Shown: piece by piece, positions 8,939 through 17,170 of the stretch
Layout of the letters: every line of letters begins with the position of its first letter
Numbering within the stretch: position 1 is the stretch's first letter
Source: Symploca sp. SIO2E9
Lineage (GTDB): Bacteria > Cyanobacteriota > Cyanobacteriia > Cyanobacteriales > Coleofasciculaceae
DNA length: 64,000 bases
NCBI GenBank assembly: GCA_010692645.1
Contig: JAAHGS010000009.1
Location: 29,793 to 93,792 of the forward strand
Direction: 5' to 3'
Notes under the pieces: generated by a model
What the model was told of the DNA's origin: nothing
The model's input: the letters and a program-made list of their open reading frames with translations, nothing else
The model's database searches: none
Position numbers and translations under genes: made by a program

Positions 8939-10813
8939 TCAAGTTAAACTGCTTTCAATAGTTGTACTTGAACTTGCTTGCATTTGCGTTTGCCAAGACT
9001 GGGCATAAAGACCATCTTGAGCTAGTAGTTGATCATGATTACCTGATTCGACAATTTGACCAGCACGCATAACGTGAATAATGTCAGCACGCATCGCCAA
9101 CGTGAAGCGATGGGTAATCACAATCGCAGTGCGACCATTAGCTAATTTACGGAATCTCTCCAACCAATCAAACTCAGCCCAGGGATCCATGGCACTAGTG
9201 GGTTCATCCAGAATAATTATCTGGGCACGCCGCAGAAAAGACCTTGCTAAAGCCAGACGCTGCCATTCACCTCCACTGAGATCATTGCCTCCAGGAAACC
9301 ATTTCCCCATCAATGAATCGTAACCTTGAGGTAAGCTAGAGATTTTATCATGGATACCAGAACCTTTAGCAGCCGCCTCAATTTCTACCTGAGTTGGTGT
9401 TACTGATAAATCACCTAATTTGATATTCTCGGCAGCAGTTAAGTGGTAAGGAGCTGGGGATTGAAATAACATCGTAATCTGGCGGCGAAGTTCCTCAACA
9501 GAAAAGTTGCGAAAATCATTTCCGTCGAGTTCAATACTTCCTGATTCTGGGTCATAAAAGCGGCACAGAAGTTTAGTTAGTGTACTCTTGCCAGCACCGT
9601 TATCTCCTACAATTGCCACGATTTTGCCAGCAGGAATAGTAAGATTGAAATTCTCTAAAACTGCCCTTTCACTACCAGGATAACGGAAGGTAACTTCTCG
9701 AAACTCAATTCCCTGTTTTAATCTCGGAGGTATAGGAGTAGGTTGGGGAGGGTCTATAATTTTTGGTTTTAGCTGTAAAAATTCAAATAAGTTACTAATA
9801 AATAAACTATTTTGATAAATTTGTCCTGCGTTTCCTAACAGAGATTTCATTAAGCCTTGCCCTCGATTAAAGGCTTGATAGAAAAGGGCTAAATCGCCCA
9901 AAGTTATTAGTCCTAATAAGACTTGCCTACCCATCCAGACAAGGGCAATACCAGAGATTAACAGCGCTAAAATACCAGCACCAAAACGCCCCAAACTCTG
10001 GTCTCTGATCAACTTTAGATGCTCGGTTCGTATCCGATAGCGCAATTGTTGGTAAGCCGACTGGAAATAAGAGCCGAGATCAAAAAGACGTATTTCGGCA
10101 GCAGTATTGCTGATTGTTATTAACAGTTCATAGTACTGAAGCCGTCGTCTGTCTGTAGTGGTTGTTTGCCACCACTGATGATGGCGTCGATTGAGGCGAA
10201 GGATCACATAAAAAGCAGGTAATGTACTCACCACTAGGATAATTGGCAACCAAGCACCATAGGGGAGTAGTATTGCTGCCATCGCCATCAGGGTAATGCT
10301 ATTTTGTAGTAGGCTACCGCTGCTCTCTAACAGAGAGAGGGAACGATTACTAGCATCGCTGCGCGCCCTATCTAGATGATCATAAAACTCTGATGACTCA
10401 TAAAAAGCTAAATCTACTGCCGTAGATTTCTTGTGAACTAAAGCGCTGATATAATCCTGTGCTAATTCTGTTTGAGCTGTGCGTACCCACTGTAGTAAGT
10501 TGGTCAGCAGTTCTGTTAATAATAATACCCCTACCATTAAGGCAGCTGGAACTAGAATAATCCTAATCGCCTGCCCAGAAATACCAGCGCCGACAACCTC
10601 TACTAAACTATCTACTAATAGCCGAGTTAGGAAAACAGTAGCAGCTGGTAGCAATCCCTGAATAATTAGCAAAACTACCCAAGCTAAAGTCCAGTAGTGG
10701 GATGCAGCCCAGATCAATTTAAAAGTTTGGGGCAAGTAGGATAGCCGAGATAAAGAATTATTGAATTTGCTAATAAGGAGTTGATGTAGCTTACGCCCGT
10801 TTGGTTTAGGCAT
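8939..10813 (-). CDS. lasso-peptide-type ABC exporter (McjD-like, fused TMD-NBD)
   Basis: 624 aa half-transporter. The N-terminal about 320 residues form a six-helix type I exporter membrane domain. The C-terminal nucleotide-binding domain has Walker A GDNGAGKST, signature LSGGEWQRLALAR, Walker B IIILDEPTSAMD and an H-loop in IVITHRF. No peptidase C39 domain precedes the membrane domain, which fits lasso exporters, where the B2 protease removes the leader separately. It is the last intact gene of the minus-strand lasso cluster, 350 bp after the kinase gene, with a repeat element in between. The likely role is export of, and self-protection against, the mature peptide; substrate is inferred from context. 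Confidence 0.85.
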   Translation of the reverse strand: MPKPNGRKLHQLLISKFNNSLSRLSYLPQTFKLIWAASHYWTLAWVVLLIIQGLLPAATVFLTRLLVDSLVEVVGAGISGQAIRIILVPAALMVGVLLLTELLTNLLQWVRTAQTELAQDYISALVHKKSTAVDLAFYESSEFYDHLDRARSDASNRSLSLLESSGSLLQNSITLMAMAAILLPYGAWLPIILVVSTLPAFYVILRLNRRHHQWWQTTTTDRRRLQYYELLITISNTAAEIRLFDLGSYFQSAYQQLRYRIRTEHLKLIRDQSLGRFGAGILALLISGIALVWMGRQVLLGLITLGDLALFYQAFNRGQGLMKSLLGNAGQIYQNSLFISNLFEFLQLKPKIIDPPQPTPIPPRLKQGIEFREVTFRYPGSERAVLENFNLTIPAGKIVAIVGDNGAGKSTLTKLLCRFYDPESGSIELDGNDFRNFSVEELRRQITMLFQSPAPYHLTAAENIKLGDLSVTPTQVEIEAAAKGSGIHDKISSLPQGYDSLMGKWFPGGNDLSGGEWQRLALARSFLRRAQIIILDEPTSAMDPWAEFDWLERFRKLANGRTAIVITHRFTLAMRADIIHVMRAGQIVESGNHDQLLAQDGLYAQSWQTQMQASSSTTIESSLT

Positions 10814-10992: not shown

Positions 10993-11164
10993 GTGTTTAA
11001 TTCTTCTTTGATAAGCTGTTGTGCATCTAAATTGCAGTTTCGACTATTTCTAGAAAGGCTCCCGAGGCAGAGGGCAGAGAGCAAAAGTTGATCAAAATTC
11101 TCTCCCCATCTCCCCATCTCCCCATCTCCCCCTCTCCCCCTCCCCCTCTCCATCGCTTTTGAAG

Positions 11165-12076
11165 CTAGACTGTAACCGTGTGAGTATCATGAGCAATGTC
11201 TTCTTCCACTAGCTTGACTAACTCAGGTAACAATGCTAAATTACGTGGTCGTTTGAGGCGATAGAGAGTACATTCCTTAACAAGGTTTACACACTGAAGG
11301 AAGTGTTGTGCGTCTGGTGATTGAAATAAGGTTGCAGGGCGAGAGTGACGCGATAGTTCAACGACAGCTTCCTTAGGTTTCAGGGGTTCAATACCAAACT
11401 CTGAGTCAGAGGAAAGCACATAAATGCGCCGTATTGGTAGTGGCTTTTGAGTAAATTCCTGCCTCTGGCGATAACCCCGTTTTTCCTCCGATGAGTTGAG
11501 TAACAGTAGCGACTCAAAGTCATATCCGAGAGTAGAAGCTACTTCTGGGCCTAGTTTAATTTGGGGAAATCCAGGGGCGATTGTCGCTTGTTCTTTACCT
11601 AAGGTGACAGGGGCAACATCATCAGTAATAATGCTATATCCATGAGCGTGGAAGGCAGCAGCAGTTGAAGACTTGCCCTCACCAGATATTCCCAAGAAAG
11701 CAACAGCACCACCATCAATGTTTACTCCACTGGCATGGAGTACTAATAGCCCTCGCTGATAGAGCAAAATTCCCATGACAGTTCCAACAAGATAGAACCG
11801 AATAAGTTGTTCAGATGCATATGGTGCTGGAACAATGACAATTTTGTTTCCGCCCTTCACCAGAAAAACCCCTGTATCTTTGACATAAACCAGTGCATCT
11901 TTTCGGCTTAGCTTGAGACACCAAGGTTGCCCAACAGCTTCCTGGGGCAGATAGTCAATCGGGTTGTGACTGTTTTCTATCTTCAGGGTGACATCACATC
12001 CTAGTTCTGCTTCGATAAATTCTGGTATAGCTATCTCAGACTGGATCCCTAAACCGTAGGCAAAGTATGAAAACAC
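11165..12076 (-). CDS. HPr-kinase-like kinase of lasso peptide cluster
   Basis: About 303 aa from a GTG at 12076 preceded by GAGGAAAG at good spacing; a TTG at 12100 would add eight residues. The P-loop GISGEGKSS lies in the middle of the protein, followed by the HPrK-like TDDVAPV segment. It lacks the N-terminal regulatory domain of true HPr kinase/phosphorylases. Homologues in lasso clusters (PadeK of paeninodin, PsmK of pseudomycoidin) phosphorylate the hydroxyl of the C-terminal Ser of the precursor. The precursor encoded 270 bp upstream ends in Ser, which supports the same role. It follows the precursor on the same strand after a large inverted repeat. Confidence 0.8.
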   Translation of the reverse strand: MFSYFAYGLGIQSEIAIPEFIEAELGCDVTLKIENSHNPIDYLPQEAVGQPWCLKLSRKDALVYVKDTGVFLVKGGNKIVIVPAPYASEQLIRFYLVGTVMGILLYQRGLLVLHASGVNIDGGAVAFLGISGEGKSSTAAAFHAHGYSIITDDVAPVTLGKEQATIAPGFPQIKLGPEVASTLGYDFESLLLLNSSEEKRGYRQRQEFTQKPLPIRRIYVLSSDSEFGIEPLKPKEAVVELSRHSRPATLFQSPDAQHFLQCVNLVKECTLYRLKRPRNLALLPELVKLVEEDIAHDTHTVTV

Positions 12077-12179
12077 GTTTGGCTTTCCTCGCTCCAGCAA
12101 AGTTTTTCAACAGGCATATTTAGCTTGTGATTACAATGATTAATAATTCGTAATTCGCAGTTGGCACAATAATCTAGTC

Positions 12180-12245
12180 AAAGATAAGCTAGGGAATCTA
12201 TAATAATAGATAGGTACCCTTCTAGTACTTCCCTAGCTTGTCTTT
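12180..12245 (-). terminator. large inverted repeat between lasso precursor and kinase
   Basis: Arms of 17 bases (AAAGATAAGCTAGGGAA and its near-perfect complement, one mismatch) separated by a 32-base loop, about 100 bp downstream of the precursor stop. It could attenuate read-through so that the precursor transcript exceeds the enzyme transcript. There is no clear U-tract, so termination is not certain. Confidence 0.5.
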
Positions 12246-12342
12246 AAAAGTTCAAGCTCGTAGATCTAGTTCCCGACCTTGGAAGTCACCCATCTGTAGC
12301 TGAGTGTAGTCCGTGAGGTAGTTCTAGTCTAAAAAGCTAGCT

Positions 12343-12486
12343 CTAGGAACCAATGGCAACGGGGCTATCTACACCGGGAATGGCCAAGAAAACCCCGTCT
12401 TGTGCTCCAAAGCGTTTGATCTGCTCAGTCAGGTTCTCAACAGCACCGTAGACGGTGACTTCGGGTGTATTCCAAGTTTTCTTCAT
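12343..12486 (-). CDS. lasso peptide precursor (47 aa)
   Basis: Small gene with ATG at 12486 and a strong AAGGAG eight bases upstream. The leader MKKTWNTPEVTVYGAVENLT fits the lasso leader pattern (aromatic)-x2-P-x5-G-x5-T: W5, P8, G14, T20. With T20 at the usual -2 position the core begins at Q22, and D30 is then residue 9, giving a nine-residue macrolactam QIKRFGAQD. The tail is hydrophobic (GVFLAIPGV...) and ends IGS, so the last residue is Ser, matching the kinase next door. Gln at core position 1 is unusual, since Gly, Ala, Ser or Cys are common; the cleavage site is therefore inference. It lies between the cyclase and kinase genes. Confidence 0.85.
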   Translation of the reverse strand: MKKTWNTPEVTVYGAVENLTEQIKRFGAQDGVFLAIPGVDSPVAIGS

Positions 12487-12513
12487 CTTTGATTCTCCTT
12501 GTGGTAAACAATT

Positions 12514-12530
12514 CTTCAGCTAGGCTGAAG
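12514..12530 (-). promoter_or_regulatory. short palindrome in the leader of the lasso precursor mRNA
   Basis: CTTCAGCTAGGCTGAAG, a perfect 7-bp inverted repeat with a 3-base loop between the candidate promoter and the ribosome site. It may be an operator or an mRNA hairpin; nothing in the sequence decides which. Confidence 0.4.
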
Positions 12531-12552
12531 GCACTTCGAAATAAAGCGCTTT

Positions 12553-12580
12553 AATATAGAATTCGTATAAGGTGAGGCAA
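12553..12580 (-). promoter_or_regulatory. candidate promoter of lasso precursor
   Basis: On the minus strand TTGCCT, a 16-base spacer, TATATT, ending 67 bases before the precursor ATG. A separate promoter inside the cluster would fit the need for more precursor than enzyme. Match to the sigma-70 consensus is moderate. Confidence 0.35.
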
Positions 12581-12718
12581 GAAGTAGATACACAACTGAG
12601 TCAAATAAAAACTAAGAAAATAGTGAATTTCGGTTTAATTTAGTTAGTCCAGAAGAATAATTTCTCCCCCTCCCCCCCTCTCCCTTCAACAAGCTGTACC
12701 TAGCTCAATTGAAAAGCG

Positions 12719-14620
12719 CTATAGATGGGAATGATTGAACCAGAGGGCGAGGATGACCCCAGTCATTAAGGTTATGGGTTCATCTTCTATCTCTTGGGGC
12801 TGTGAGGCATAGCGCTCATAAGCTGAACGCAGTACTGGTAAATTCACATAAGGCTCGATAGCTTGCGGTTGATTAATCACCTCCTTTAAGGTTTTTGCTT
12901 CGACTTCTAATAACTTTCGATTAAAGTTATAACCGAGCCTTCCTTTGCTAACTCGCCATTGGACTTCTGGAGGCAGAATCTCAGTCATTGCAAAGCGGAG
13001 AATCGCTCTCGACCAACCTTGGCGAAACTTTTGATTTGAGGGTAGAGCTAGGCAGAATTCCATCACTCGCCGATCAAAAAATGGGTAGCGTCCCTCCAGG
13101 GAAAATCTTGCAGTTGTCTTGTCAGTTATCTCCATTAAATTGGGATACAAACCCGTGGTGAGGCTGAGCCGATGTTGCTCTCTGCTGCTCAGTGCTAGCA
13201 CTGGTATACTACTGTGCAAGGCTTGAGTCTGCTCTACTACTCCAACCTGTTGGGCAAAAGCTGTGTTAATTAGGTTACTGTTGGGTTTGAGAGTTTTAGT
13301 GATTCTGCGTAACCACTGCCCTAGGTAACTGACAGGTTCTAAAACTAAAGGAGCGAGAGCATATCTCTGGAGAATGAGCCGACGGGATAAACGACATCGC
13401 CTTGCTGCAGCGTTCACTTCTTGCATGAGGGTCTGCCAACGACCAGTATAAGCTAGTTCTGTCAGATATGACCAGCCGTGGGAAACTGCGCTGTCACCGT
13501 CAATGCCGTCTAAAAATACCCTTACTCCCTGTTGGTTGGCACACTCATAAAGCCCCTGATGTATATAGAGATTGGGAGCGAGAATTGGTTCTTCATCCTG
13601 CCAAAGAATATCAATCAATGGGTTGAGCTGATCTGCTCGCACATCATGAGGCTGAAATCCTCCCAGTGCTTTAACGGCGTTCATATAGTGACGCTCGTCA
13701 ATCCAACGTAAGTCCTCTTTTGGCAGGCTGGGGAAAATGGCAGAAAACGTATGCAGCCGCTGATTTCCAGACTTAGCCAATATTTGACGGGCAGTACAGG
13801 CAATCGAAGATGAGTCTAGTCCGCCACTTAGGCTTGAGCCGACAGGGAAGGCACTGCGTAGACGACAACTTACTGCTTTAGTGAAGACTTCATTGAAAGC
13901 TTCAATATATTCCTGATTTGATTTTAACCTAATTTCCCGTTTAGGGTCAAGAGACCAATAGGATTTAAGCTGCATTTTCTTGGTAGAACCTACACTCAGA
14001 TAGTGAGCAGCTCTGAGTCTGAAAATGTCCTGGTAGAAGGTTATTTCTTGGTCTTCATAGAACAATTCCAGATAATAGGCGACTTTAAGTTCGTTGAGTC
14101 GCTGTGGCACTTCTGGCAAGCACAGAAGGGCTTTAATCTCTGAGGCAAAGACAAAAATATCCTTGGAGCGATAGTAGTAAAAGGATTTTATTCCCATGGG
14201 GTCCCTAGCGCAGAATAACTGCTGCTTGCGCCCATCCCAGATAGCAAAGGCAAAGTCACCTATGAGCTTATCTGGGCAAGACTCACCCCACTTTTCGTAA
14301 GCAGCTAAAATTATTTGGCTATCTGTGATTTTTTCAGCGGGGCGATCGCTAAAATCCAATGTAGGAATTAGTTCATCGCGGTTATCAATCCTAGCATCAG
14401 CAGTGATTGCCAGATTGCTGTTTTGGCTAACTAAAGGTAGCTTCTCTAGAAGAGATTCTGGTGTAGTCCACAGCATCCGATGCCCTAAACCAACTGAACC
14501 TTCGCTCCAGATATCGGCTCCATCAGGTCCTCGATGGGCAAGGATATCTACCATTTGCCCTAGATTTTCCCGTTCTACTGACTTACCATCAAAGTAGTAA
14601 ATTCCGACAATAGCGCTCAT
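12719..14620 (-). CDS. lasso cyclase (asparagine-synthetase-like, C protein)
   Basis: 633 aa with an N-terminal glutaminase-like domain (RGPDG near residue 31) and a C-terminal asparagine-synthetase ATP-pyrophosphatase domain with PP-loop SLSGGLDSSS around residue 262. Residue 2 is Ser (MSAIVGIYYF) where glutamine-dependent asparagine synthetases have the catalytic Cys, so it should not use glutamine. This fits lasso cyclases, which adenylate an Asp/Glu side chain and let the core amino terminus attack. It sits four bases after the B2 protease stop and upstream of the precursor, so cluster order is B1-B2-C-A-K-D. The ATG at 14620 is the only sensible start. Confidence 0.9.
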   Translation of the reverse strand: MSAIVGIYYFDGKSVERENLGQMVDILAHRGPDGADIWSEGSVGLGHRMLWTTPESLLEKLPLVSQNSNLAITADARIDNRDELIPTLDFSDRPAEKITDSQIILAAYEKWGESCPDKLIGDFAFAIWDGRKQQLFCARDPMGIKSFYYYRSKDIFVFASEIKALLCLPEVPQRLNELKVAYYLELFYEDQEITFYQDIFRLRAAHYLSVGSTKKMQLKSYWSLDPKREIRLKSNQEYIEAFNEVFTKAVSCRLRSAFPVGSSLSGGLDSSSIACTARQILAKSGNQRLHTFSAIFPSLPKEDLRWIDERHYMNAVKALGGFQPHDVRADQLNPLIDILWQDEEPILAPNLYIHQGLYECANQQGVRVFLDGIDGDSAVSHGWSYLTELAYTGRWQTLMQEVNAAARRCRLSRRLILQRYALAPLVLEPVSYLGQWLRRITKTLKPNSNLINTAFAQQVGVVEQTQALHSSIPVLALSSREQHRLSLTTGLYPNLMEITDKTTARFSLEGRYPFFDRRVMEFCLALPSNQKFRQGWSRAILRFAMTEILPPEVQWRVSKGRLGYNFNRKLLEVEAKTLKEVINQPQAIEPYVNLPVLRSAYERYASQPQEIEDEPITLMTGVILALWFNHSHL

Positions 14621-14624
14621 AGTC

Positions 14625-15068
14625 CTATCTTCGTCCCTCCAGAGATGGCAGTGGCATGAAACGCGAAAGATCTACGAGATTGCCTATGACCACTTGCCCT
14701 TGACTTTCAACCCAAGCGTGGGCCTCAAACTGTCCTCCTTCTCCTTTGGCTACGCCAATTCGCAATTCAGGTAAGTGACCATATCGACTCATAAAAACTT
14801 GTGTAGTTAAGGCACGAGCCAAACACTTAACACCACCAGGCATGTAGTAACTGCTTACATTCACAGCCCAGATAATTTTGCCTACAGAAACTGCTTTGAC
14901 TTGCAGCTGCTTGGAGTTGGACTGACTGATTTTTGCTATAGCTTGTCGCAAACTGGGAAATGGCAGCAACCATAGCCCTAATCTGACTAATCCCAACAAG
15001 ACAAAAGTTTTGAATAGAAGTTGGTAATCGCCAGCACTAAGGCGCACTAACTTACGCAACTGCTTCAT
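14625..15068 (-). CDS. lasso leader peptidase (B2, transglutaminase-like)
   Basis: 147 aa from the ATG at 15068, overlapping the end of B1 by 17 bases; a TTG four codons earlier is less likely. A hydrophobic N-terminal part is followed by a Cys protease fold: C82 in GGVKCLARAL and H117 in FEAHAWVE, with D133 or N130 as the third member. The pattern matches the lasso B2 family (PF13471), which cuts the leader after the conserved Thr-x pair. Overlap with B1 implies translational coupling, as expected for partners that form one functional protease. Confidence 0.9.
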   Translation of the reverse strand: MKQLRKLVRLSAGDYQLLFKTFVLLGLVRLGLWLLPFPSLRQAIAKISQSNSKQLQVKAVSVGKIIWAVNVSSYYMPGGVKCLARALTTQVFMSRYGHLPELRIGVAKGEGGQFEAHAWVESQGQVVIGNLVDLSRFMPLPSLEGRR

Positions 15069-15357
15069 TTTTAACCTCAATTAACTCTTTGGCGGCTAAT
15101 TGTTGTAGTAATTCCAAAATCTCCCGCTCGCATTGTTCCGGCTCTACTTCATATTCCTCCAAAATTGCCTCTCGAACCTCACTTACTGTCTTTGGTTCTT
15201 GGATCAAATTCCAGATGCTAGAACCTACAGTATTTAAACCGTAATAAGTTCCAGACTTGAAGTTAAGAATAACTGATTCTCCCTCTAAATCAGAAGAAAC
15301 TTGCTCCTTGACGGCGACAACAGTTGAAGATTTAGAAATTGCTAATTGTAAAGTCAT
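15052..15357 (-). CDS. PqqD-like RiPP recognition protein (lasso B1)
   Basis: 101 aa. The core ESVILNFKSGTYYGLNTVGSSIW is the PqqD/RRE pattern (three strands then helices), used by lasso B1 proteins to bind the leader and present it to B2 and the cyclase. The C-terminal half is helical and acidic (EEYEVEPEQCEREILELLQQL). It is the first gene of the minus-strand lasso transcript and overlaps B2. The N-terminal 20 residues are poorly conserved. Confidence 0.9.
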   Translation of the reverse strand: MTLQLAISKSSTVVAVKEQVSSDLEGESVILNFKSGTYYGLNTVGSSIWNLIQEPKTVSEVREAILEEYEVEPEQCEREILELLQQLAAKELIEVKNEAVA

Positions 15358-16069
15358 GATTTATCTCAATCCTTCTAACTCGTTTAACCAGTATGAATAT
15401 CAATTTATAGCTTGTTGTTATCCACAAAAAGCATTAAGTACTTTCGATTTATTAGTGACAAATTAAGTGGCAATAACTTGAAAAAAATCTGACACTAAAA
15501 TGACTCAAATCTTGACATAGAGATGATTTAACTTCTCATGCTCTAATGAATCCATGATTCAAGGGAGTTTCACCGATTATGGGTAAGGGATAGATGCTTA
15601 GCAATAGGTAATTGTGAACTTACACCCTGAAAATATATTTCTGTATTTTAAGCTAAGCCAAGGATTATAACAGAAGATAGAAGTAGAATGCAACATTCTT
15701 TGATTTTACTGAGTGAATAAAACCTCAAGTTCCACGAGCAAGTTGTAGCAAGTTTGCGAGCAAATCCTATGGTTTTACCGTTCAACTTACTGTTCGATTA
15801 AATATAGCGATTTTTTTTGGCATATGTCAATATTTATTGCTCGCTTTACAAACACTTTATATTTTGATTGCTCCTCTTAAAAATCTCCTCATCTTTCCTT
15901 CTCAGAAGGAATATTTAATTCGATTGACCATTTGACAAAACGTCTAAATTTTGGTTTTACTGAAGATGTTAGAAAGTTTTTTGAAGAATTACACTAACTA
16001 TTTAAAGCTCAGACCGTTATTCTAATCAGTTATCCCTGATCTATCGTCTAATTAATATCAAGCTATTAA
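15358..16069. other. divergent intergenic region of the lasso cluster
   Basis: 712 AT-rich bases between B1 (minus) and the nucleotidyltransferase gene (plus). No ORF with a ribosome site and no clear hairpin is seen. It should contain the promoters of both arms of the cluster. Confidence 0.5.
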
Positions 16070-17170
16070 ATGACTAATTTATCTCATACCCTGCTCTACG
16101 CCTCCCTCACTCAGAAATGCTCTGGCTTGACTACCAATGCGAGGAAACAACTAAGTTGTGCGACTGAGTTGGAATGGAAACGCACTATTGCGACACTGGC
16201 ACTGCATCGATTACTTCCACTAGTGTTTTATTCTCTCCAAGCCTACAATCTTACCGACGCTGTGCCGCATCCCTACTTAGCTCAGATGCAAACTGCATAT
16301 CGCCAGACACGGCAGAAGAATACTATCCTCTTGCTCACTTTAGATGGCATTTTACAGGCGATGGCAAAACACAACCTTCATCCTGTACTCTGGAAAGGCG
16401 TAGTACTTGCTGACAGTTTCTATCCTGATCCTGGAACTAGGCCAATGGGAGATATAGATTTTGCCATTCCAGCTGAGGAGATGGAGGCAGCTACTACAGT
16501 TTTCCATTCCTTGGGATTTAAACTAAGGCCTGAGGCGGAAACTTCAGATGCCGTCTACTTTGCCAACAAAATGGGGGTAATCTGCGATGTCCACCATCGT
16601 GTTCGTCTGTTTGAAGGTAAAGAATCAATCAACTTGATCACTAACCTCAAGCCACAGCATATGAAAGTAGCTACCATGCCATTACTAGAGCCAAATGCCA
16701 TGATAGTTCATCTGATCGTGCATATGGATGGGCATCGCCATGAAACTGGTCTCATGCTATCTTGGATTCTTGATTTAGCCTTCGTCTTGCGCAAGTGGGG
16801 AGCTTTAATTACGCTTGAGTATATTGAGAAACTGATGCCAGCTAAAGAGAATTTAGTCTCTCTGTTTCGCGTGATCCGCTTTCTTGAAAAGGAGTTTGAC
16901 GAACAGCTACCGGCTTGCCTTACCCAAGCAGCCAAGAAGTTTGAACCGTTGACGCTGGCAGAAATTTTCCGGCAGCGAAGGTTAGCGCTATGGGGCTTAC
17001 CTTGTCCAAGCGGTTGGCTGCGATTAGGTGCAAGTCAGTTAGGTTTCCAGTTACGTCATTGTCGCCCTCAACTCCAGGTGGATGATTTATTAATGTTGCC
17101 GGTAGATGCCTTGAACAATTCACGAATCCGTAACCAGTTGATGCCCAAGATGGCTGGCAACCGAGGATGA
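16070..17170 (+). CDS. nucleotidyltransferase family protein (NTP_transf_5, PsmN-like)
   Basis: 366 aa. The signature segment reads LWKGVVLADSFYPDPGTRPMGDIDF around residues 107-130, the K-G...R-P-x-x-D-x-D pattern of the uncharacterised nucleotidyltransferase family PF14907, with D127 and D129 as likely metal ligands. Members recur in RiPP clusters; in the pseudomycoidin lasso cluster such a gene (psmN) accompanies the kinase and is needed for further decoration of the phosphorylated C-terminus. It is divergent from the lasso genes, beginning 712 bp upstream of B1. Function here is inference from that precedent. Confidence 0.75.
   Translation: MTNLSHTLLYASLTQKCSGLTTNARKQLSCATELEWKRTIATLALHRLLPLVFYSLQAYNLTDAVPHPYLAQMQTAYRQTRQKNTILLLTLDGILQAMAKHNLHPVLWKGVVLADSFYPDPGTRPMGDIDFAIPAEEMEAATTVFHSLGFKLRPEAETSDAVYFANKMGVICDVHHRVRLFEGKESINLITNLKPQHMKVATMPLLEPNAMIVHLIVHMDGHRHETGLMLSWILDLAFVLRKWGALITLEYIEKLMPAKENLVSLFRVIRFLEKEFDEQLPACLTQAAKKFEPLTLAEIFRQRRLALWGLPCPSGWLRLGASQLGFQLRHCRPQLQVDDLLMLPVDALNNSRIRNQLMPKMAGNRG

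Follow-up and report, generated by a model that had tools for sequence, protein, structure and literature searches.

A complete lasso-peptide gene cluster of Symploca sp. SIO2E9 with a kinase predicted to act on the precursor tail, in a cyclase clade marked by a K-x-x-G-x-x-D core motif

We analyzed a stretch of 64,000 nucleotides from the cyanobacterium Symploca sp. SIO2E9 (assembly GCA_010692645.1, contig JAAHGS010000009.1, positions 29,793 to 93,792; hereafter, the window), which carries genes for a lasso-type ribosomally synthesized and post-translationally modified peptide (RiPP). The minus strand encodes, in this order, B1, which contains a RiPP recognition element (RRE), the leader peptidase B2, the lasso cyclase (C), the precursor (A), a kinase (K) and an ATP-binding cassette (ABC) exporter, and a nucleotidyltransferase gene (N) lies divergently on the plus strand (Table 1). 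B1, B2 and cyclase, the three genes by which a lasso cluster is recognized, are all present, and their products, like the nucleotidyltransferase, score above the curated model cut-offs. The gene set named in a first-pass annotation of this DNA was recovered in full by model matches and fold; the interval assigned to it, 11165-17170, holds all the genes except the exporter, which lies outside. The genes with their intact catalytic residues, which are conserved and remain linked in relatives, mark this as a complete RiPP cluster of the lasso type.

Table 1. Features of the lasso cluster, in window coordinates
Feature	Position	Strand	Evidence
ABC exporter, MsbA-like	8939-10813	minus	PF00005, 112.3 bits; ends the minus-strand run
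HPr-kinase/PEPCK-fold peptide kinase (K)	11165-12076	minus	GTG start; profile, fold, catalytic residues
Precursor (A)	12343-12486	minus	NF033528 (lasso_cyano), 26.6 bits, below cut-off of 33
Codon of core Ser26, proposed phosphorylation site	12346-12348	minus	Last or second-last Ser kept across the close clade
Codons of core K3 to D9, K-x-x-G-x-x-D motif	12397-12417	minus	Motif counts and cyclase trees
Lasso cyclase (C), asparagine-synthetase type	12719-14620	minus	NF033535, 834 bits (cut-off 525); SGGLDSS loop intact
B2 leader peptidase	14625-15068	minus	ATG start; NF033537, 116 bits (cut-off 33)
B1 RRE, PqqD family	15052-15357	minus	NF033536, 87.8 bits (cut-off 80); PF05402, 75.9 bits
PF14907 nucleotidyltransferase (N)	16070-17170	plus	148.9 bits (cut-off 31.2); divergent from operon

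The kinase, B2 and PF14907 each have a single match in the genome, all at this cluster. As estimated from the ratio of nonsynonymous to synonymous substitution rates (dN/dS), the seven genes are under purifying selection: against the same-genus relative Symploca sp. SIO3C6 (L093; loci are labelled L and genomes G), the ratio was 0.10-0.36, with one pairwise estimate for each gene, and 0.10 for the exporter, which is 93% identical. The likeliest start of the kinase is GTG 12076, where its relatives begin, rather than TTG 12100, and that of B2 is ATG 15068, versus TTG 15080 from the open reading frame tool. The precursor scores below the cut-off of its model and has the same leader as relatives, MKKTWNTPEVTVYGAVENLTE, with a WxxP motif (WNTP) and Thr at -2 (LTE). 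The core predicted from the Thr(-2) rule, QIKRFGAQDGVFLAIPGVDSPVAIGS, ends in ...AIGS, bearing out the terminal Ser seen in the first-pass annotation.

No HPr-kinase model that reported the kinase scored it above cut-off (TIGR04352, HprK-related kinase A, 33.5 vs 200; TIGR04355, 31.1 vs 200; TIGR00679, 17.6 vs 240; PF07475, 20.8 vs 33.3). The enzyme was therefore placed as HPr-kinase-like by profile match, fold and catalytic residues. A profile of 18 of these kinases matched HPr kinases of known structure in the PDB (E 2.4e-8), the structural model (predicted local distance difference test score, pLDDT, 91.4) matched the PEPCK 1ii2_A (Z 17.5, root-mean-square deviation (rmsd) 4.4, 265 residues), and H114, K135, D152 and D153 were invariant in alignments of 18 and 28 rows, so that the His-Lys-Asp-Asp set is intact. 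According to two reviews (PMC9266682 and PMC8498205, the motif being given in one of them), this motif is shared by the lasso kinases PadeK, ThcoK, SyanK and PsmK, which act on a C-terminal Ser, and kinases of the PadeK type recognize a C-terminal Ser (PMC8498205). The window resembles the paeninodin-type phosphorylated lasso peptides in its His-Lys-Asp-Asp kinase, WxxP leader and terminal Ser; however, paeninodins are described as restricted to Bacillota (PMC13381572), and in the close clade of the window the Ser may be second last. The window has both the C-terminal Ser of the paeninodin type and the clustered nucleotidyltransferase of the pseudomycoidin type, whereas the same-genus relative, with its ...GSI tail, lacks the former.

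Other kinases of this kind have different targets. BsfK of Bradymonas sediminis acts on the ring residue Ser3 (PMC10368454), and the target of LppK is Ser3 in a linear peptide (PMC13381572); since neither modifies a C-terminal Ser, the site of a given kinase has to be asked clade by clade. The Bsf cluster has a gene set like that of the window (A, B1, B2, C, D, K and N), but position 3 of the window core is Lys, and its ring lacks both Ser and Thr. The clusters for linear polyphosphorylated peptides (LPP) likewise combine an RRE, an HprK-like kinase, an NTP transferase and an MsbA-like exporter, but they encode a signal-peptidase-like enzyme and no cyclase, whereas the window has B2 and a cyclase (PMC13381572).

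Ser20 and Ser26 are the sole Ser or Thr residues of the window core. In the relatives L093 to L097 the tails read GSI, GSI, GS, GVS or DSL, and GSV, respectively; in L094, L096 and L097 a Thr stands in place of Ser20, while a last or second-last Ser is kept. We compared these tails with 84 collapsed cores (91 minus seven near-copies). A terminal Ser was found in 21 of them, compared with 8.2 in shuffles, and an internal [GDN]-S-x-[DN] pattern in 43, compared with 9.9; neither count was reached in any of 2000 shuffles. In the kinase tree, from which three of the 91 kinases shorter than 230 residues were dropped, one set of 50 rows (Shimodaira-Hasegawa-like approximate likelihood ratio test support, 98) comprises 39 internal, nine other and two terminal cases, and the remaining 38 rows comprise 21 terminal, seven second-last, nine other and one internal. 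The distinction between end and internal Ser required four changes in this tree and also in a second, careful one, before which the long branches L129 and L161 were removed. The window kinase falls into sets of eight rows (first tree) and seven rows (careful tree) in which the Ser is always last or second last. Together with the tails of L093 to L097, this placement makes Ser26 the best candidate for the phosphorylation site: the tail Ser is very probably the target of the kinase, which probably tolerates an extra residue after it. The tail modification proposed in the first-pass annotation therefore stands with respect to the kinase, for which the intact residues and the clade speak, but the Ser is not strictly C-terminal even within the genus.

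Two approaches to the site failed. The rule that a C-terminal Ser occurs wherever the kinase occurs was rejected by the same counts, given the 21 of 84 cores that end in Ser and the 39 internal cases among 50 rows of one kinase clade. Cyanobacterial clusters without a kinase, against which the position of the Ser might have been controlled, were too few to serve: where over 3.5 kb of downstream sequence was available (90 clusters), the kinase lies there in 87, and of the remaining three, the second cyclase of L097 and L119 are flanked by it on their opposite side and L159 has none.

In the 50-row kinase clade (e.g., L036, L037, L040, L041, L044, L046 and L048), the precursors carry an internal Gly-Ser-x-Asp followed by a further stretch, and this pattern is a candidate phosphorylation site in its own right. 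All named rows of this clade that were viewed are cyanobacterial, and L107 and L134 have Thr in place of the Ser. Past the exporter, three clusters have a second kinase (L034:11901-12956, L085:16597-17730 and L088:2268-3305) that resembles the window kinase (60% in G360) more than the kinase of the cluster proper does; no further lasso gene was matched beyond these second kinases.

The kinase was matched in 39 of 386 cyanobacterial genomes and the nucleotidyltransferase in 38 (in most of them weakly). Homologues of both occur together in 28 genomes (Fisher p 1.8e-25), which links the nucleotidyltransferase to lasso clusters. Cyclase matches to NF033535 (E 1e-100) were found in 20 of the 386 genomes. 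All 17 genomes above the cut-off also have a kinase match, versus 39 of 386 overall; among the three below it, G004 has neither kinase nor nucleotidyltransferase. A cyclase scan of named genomes, taken from the best 80 of 560 relatives, yielded 77 loci, and named and other genomes together gave 101 distinct clusters (109 minus eight duplicates), of which 95 have the kinase, 62 a nucleotidyltransferase within 9 kb and 95 a precursor. Because the query was a cyclase alignment from kinase-bearing clusters, the near-universality of the kinase may be biased; however, NF033535, which was built without reference to the kinase, gives 17 of 17. By these counts, clusters of this cyclase family, whether from Cyanobacteria or from certain other phyla, ordinarily carry this gene set, and the co-occurrence of kinase and nucleotidyltransferase, singled out in the first-pass annotation, is not unusual in it. 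Cyanobacterial lasso clusters with the same cyclase family have been described (NF033535/NF033528); for Cyanocohniella LLY, the available text names the precursor, C, B2 and B1, and its single mention of a kinase concerns scytonemin genes (PMC9332814). Kinases and nucleotidyltransferases also adjoin lasso genes in ruminal Firmicutes (PMC7533575).

Some loci depart from this outfit. L055, L056, L059 and L062 have B1, B2, a distant kinase, an ABC protein and a nucleotidyltransferase, with precursors that read QQVGGSGGF or alike (EAVGGS in L062); no cyclase was matched in their 18.5-19 kb, and they may represent another RiPP type. L159 has a cyclase, two nucleotidyltransferase genes and an exporter, with no match to kinase, B1 or B2 in 16.8 kb.

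In the nucleotidyltransferase, K109, G110, R124, D128 and D130 are invariant across 26 aligned cluster enzymes. No relative of known structure was found by sequence up to E 1, and the structural model (pLDDT 81.4) matched MenT1 (Z 13.4, rmsd 2.8, 172 residues) and ANT(2'')-Ia (Z 12.9, rmsd 3.6, 168 residues), a shared fold that does not give the donor or the acceptor. The window enzyme is 82% identical to that of L093, 63% to that of L094 and 55% to that of L146. Enzymes of the window type (E <1e-30) occur at five places in three of the 386 genomes; besides the window, two stand beside the kinase in the lasso clusters L044 and L045, one in G296 (L171) contains a stop and is separated from B1 by about 7 kb, and one (L170) is adjoined by an exporter alone, at a contig start. 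In L095 (9696-10660) the gene is split over two reading frames, perhaps through decay or a sequencing error.

The nearest described system is pseudomycoidin of Bacillus pseudomycoides (psm), in which lasso genes are likewise joined by an HPr-kinase-like kinase and a nucleotidyltransferase, and the C-terminal Ser is modified; there, the nucleotidyltransferase adds one or two hexoses to the phosphoserine, possibly via a nucleotide (PMC9266682, PMC8498205). The window differs from it in phylum, in the divergent orientation of its nucleotidyltransferase gene and in its K..G..D core, and the two were likened by description rather than by the PsmK and PsmN sequences. Linkage, fold and the analogy with pseudomycoidin suggest a similar step here, and the case for an extension of phosphoserine by the window enzyme appears evenly balanced.

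The explanation that we favor, and hold to be reasonably probable as a whole, is the following. B1 would bind the WxxP leader and present the precursor; the HPr-kinase-like enzyme would phosphorylate the last residue, Ser26, on the linear precursor; B2 would remove the leader; the cyclase would activate Asp9 and close the lactam ring; the PF14907 enzyme would add a nucleotide or hexose to the phosphoserine, as in pseudomycoidin; and the ABC protein would export the product. With the leader cut off after Glu(-1), the calculated mass of the window core minus water is 2623.412 Da, which would rise to 2703.379 Da with the phosphate and to 2865.431 Da with a hexose in addition; a cut before Lys3 would give 2382.270 Da. 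The simplest ring is the classical Gln1-Asp9 one, although the ring-closing amine is less sure than usual, since the cyclase clade keeps the acceptor Asp at a fixed distance from a Lys rather than from the leader Thr.

Several observations weigh against this explanation. A second-last Ser occurs in seven of the 84 cores, compared with 8.2 in shuffles, and because this frequency is that of chance, the argument from a second-last Ser is confined to the close clade; in a further 16 of the 84, both the end Ser and the internal pattern are missing. The tail of the same-genus relative ends in Ser-Ile, while PadeK-type kinases are reported to recognize a C-terminal Ser. Matching clades of kinases and precursors could result from shared descent and so do not prove action. 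The window nucleotidyltransferase is only 17-22% identical to the other 22 of the 25 aligned cluster enzymes, and the presence of this gene is not sharply tied to the class of Ser (17 of 21 terminal, five of six second-last, 26 of 41 internal and six of 16 other cores). The serial action of kinase and nucleotidyltransferase put forward in the first-pass annotation goes back to one characterized case, pseudomycoidin, and deletion of the homologue LppN caused no visible change in a heterologous host (PMC13381572). Finally, the product is known from its genes alone, and the threaded lactam, the Ser phosphate and the hexose are all predicted.

The ring requires closer consideration, as it involves a feature that the first reading overlooked. 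Lasso rings are defined as joining the alpha-amine to an Asp or Glu at position 7-9 (PMC9266682), and a change of ring size by one residue significantly reduced production (PMC13352647). Counted from Thr(-2), the acceptor Asp of the window is at core position 9, within the classical range. Among the 84 collapsed cores, an Asp or Glu is at position 9 in 56 and at position 8 in 21, versus about 8.6 in shuffles. To our knowledge, rings of seven to nine residues are the sole known lasso sizes. However, 23 of 141 precursors (22 distinct) contain K-x-x-G-x-x-D in the first 20 core residues, compared with 1.4 in shuffles (maximum of six in 500), whereas 113 of the 118 precursors without it have an Asp or Glu at 8 or 9. 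The Lys-Asp spacing is fixed by the definition of the motif, and the findings are the frequency of the motif and the occurrence of its Asp anywhere from 8 to 15 in that set. In a quick cyclase tree of 95 rows, the 19 motif clusters form one side of one branch (support 93), corresponding to one change, whereas the shuffled mean was 17.6.

As the motif was noticed after the fact, it was tested on genomes freshly drawn from the phylum of L137 (396 genomes, of which 12 matched, including L137's own G410) and from that of L098 (390 genomes, of which five matched, including L098's own G411). A precursor was found at ten of these 17 loci and none at the other seven. After the fresh loci were added to the tree, the minimal branch enclosing the 19 motif rows comprised 26 rows, with two earlier non-motif and five fresh ones (support 76), and the next well-supported branch comprised 28 rows, with three earlier non-motif and six fresh ones (support 98). 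Among the loci with a precursor, the motif was present in all six inside the 28-row branch, with Asp at 11, 11, 13, 14, 14 and 16, and in none of the four outside; L178 and L179 are near-copies. The clade spans Cyanobacteria, Chloroflexi, Acidobacteria, Rokubacteria, a Deltaproteobacterium and Sumerlaeota. Over all 28 distinct motif cores, the Asp is at position 8 (two cores), 9 (six), 10 (four), 11 (seven), 12 (two), 13 (two), 14 (three), 15 (one) or 16 (one), i.e., outside 7-9 in 20, and another Asp or Glu at 7-9 occurs in one, L152, whose motif Asp is at 8. The WxxP leader is present in 26 of the 28, and the last Ser lies within the final three residues in 22. Near misses were left uncounted (the first precursors of L098 and L113), as was the upstream precursor of L119, which fits the motif but lies outside the counted set. 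L143 is a mosaic: its kinase belongs to the eight-row set of the window and its tail is SSL, but its cyclase does not group with the motif branch, and the motif is absent from its core; this combination suggests that ring and tail are separable.

With its cyclase, the window belongs to a clade that would make rings of 8-16 residues, cut the leader elsewhere or use the Lys. The constant Lys-Asp spacing, together with a constant leader and a variable linker, favors the Lys as the fixed point. The conserved Lys, placed six residues ahead of the acceptor Asp, may then set the ring in place of the N-terminus that lies two residues past the leader Thr. Either trimming to Lys3, by B2 or a second cut, would give a seven-residue Lys3-Asp9 ring closed by the alpha-amine, or the side chain of the Lys would attack the Asp and leave an N-terminal extension. 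Seven-residue rings are known (PMC13352647, including the title of its xanthomonin reference). We nevertheless regard this alternative as doubtful. Both the leader Thr and the spacing at which it stands are conserved, which argues for the usual cut; Asp9 of the window needs nothing special; the Lys could be conserved for recognition by the cyclase; and the enlarged branch includes the two or three earlier clusters without the motif. No cyclase residue accounts for the motif, since a single alignment column (R517 vs K) separated the two groups at 85%. Closure through Lys by a lasso cyclase was not found in the available text of the literature examined, and neither the kinase site in cyanobacterial lasso clusters nor the K..G..D motif was described in the literature searched, from which subscription journals were mostly absent.

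The remaining alternatives concern single genes or expression. The nucleotidyltransferase could be a neighbor with another job, e.g., a toxin-like or self-standing enzyme, as its opposite strand, its distance of about 700 bases from B1 and its best fold matches, MenT1 and ANT(2'')-Ia, would allow. We consider this unlikely: the gene is the sole PF14907 gene of the genome, it has the same divergent position in L093 and a different position within the cluster in L094, L095 and L096, and 28 of the 38 genomes with a homologue also have the kinase. Phosphorylation of Ser20 (D-S-P) in place of the tail Ser is rather improbable; this Ser, after an Asp, is kept in the same-genus relative, but L094, L096 and L097 lack it while retaining the tail Ser. 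A silent or decayed cluster is very improbable with all frames intact and the dN/dS values given above, even though the native pba and lpp products also went unseen in their own host (PMC13381572).

The surroundings of the cluster look unrelated to it: a metalloprotease-like protein, carbamoyl-phosphate synthase and GcpE are encoded on one side, and Uma2, a protein kinase with WD40 repeats, a HAD hydrolase and MreD/C/B on the other. A promoter scan was uninformative (18 sites vs 15.9 expected; terminators, 11 vs 7.4). A small hairpin lies just upstream of the precursor on the same strand (12514-12530), such sites being near their chance number, and a run of GGGGAGATGGGGAG-like repeats follows the kinase gene (11100-11160).

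The two kinase clades with their two Ser positions, at the end and within Gly-Ser-x-Asp, make the site choice of these kinases directly testable. If the Lys does define the ring, this cyclase clade would make seven-residue Lys-Asp rings, either via the alpha-amine after unusual trimming or via the Lys side chain with a free N-terminal extension, accompanied by a kinase tolerating one or two residues after the tail Ser, and lasso cyclases would have a new rule of ring closure. As far as the available text of the literature examined tells, rings larger than nine residues, extra trimming or closure through Lys would each be new. Genome mining for lasso peptides counts from Thr at -2 to an acceptor at 7-9; given a clade of several phyla in which 20 of 28 cores depart from this count while the Lys-Asp spacing is constant, the count may not hold for every lasso cyclase.

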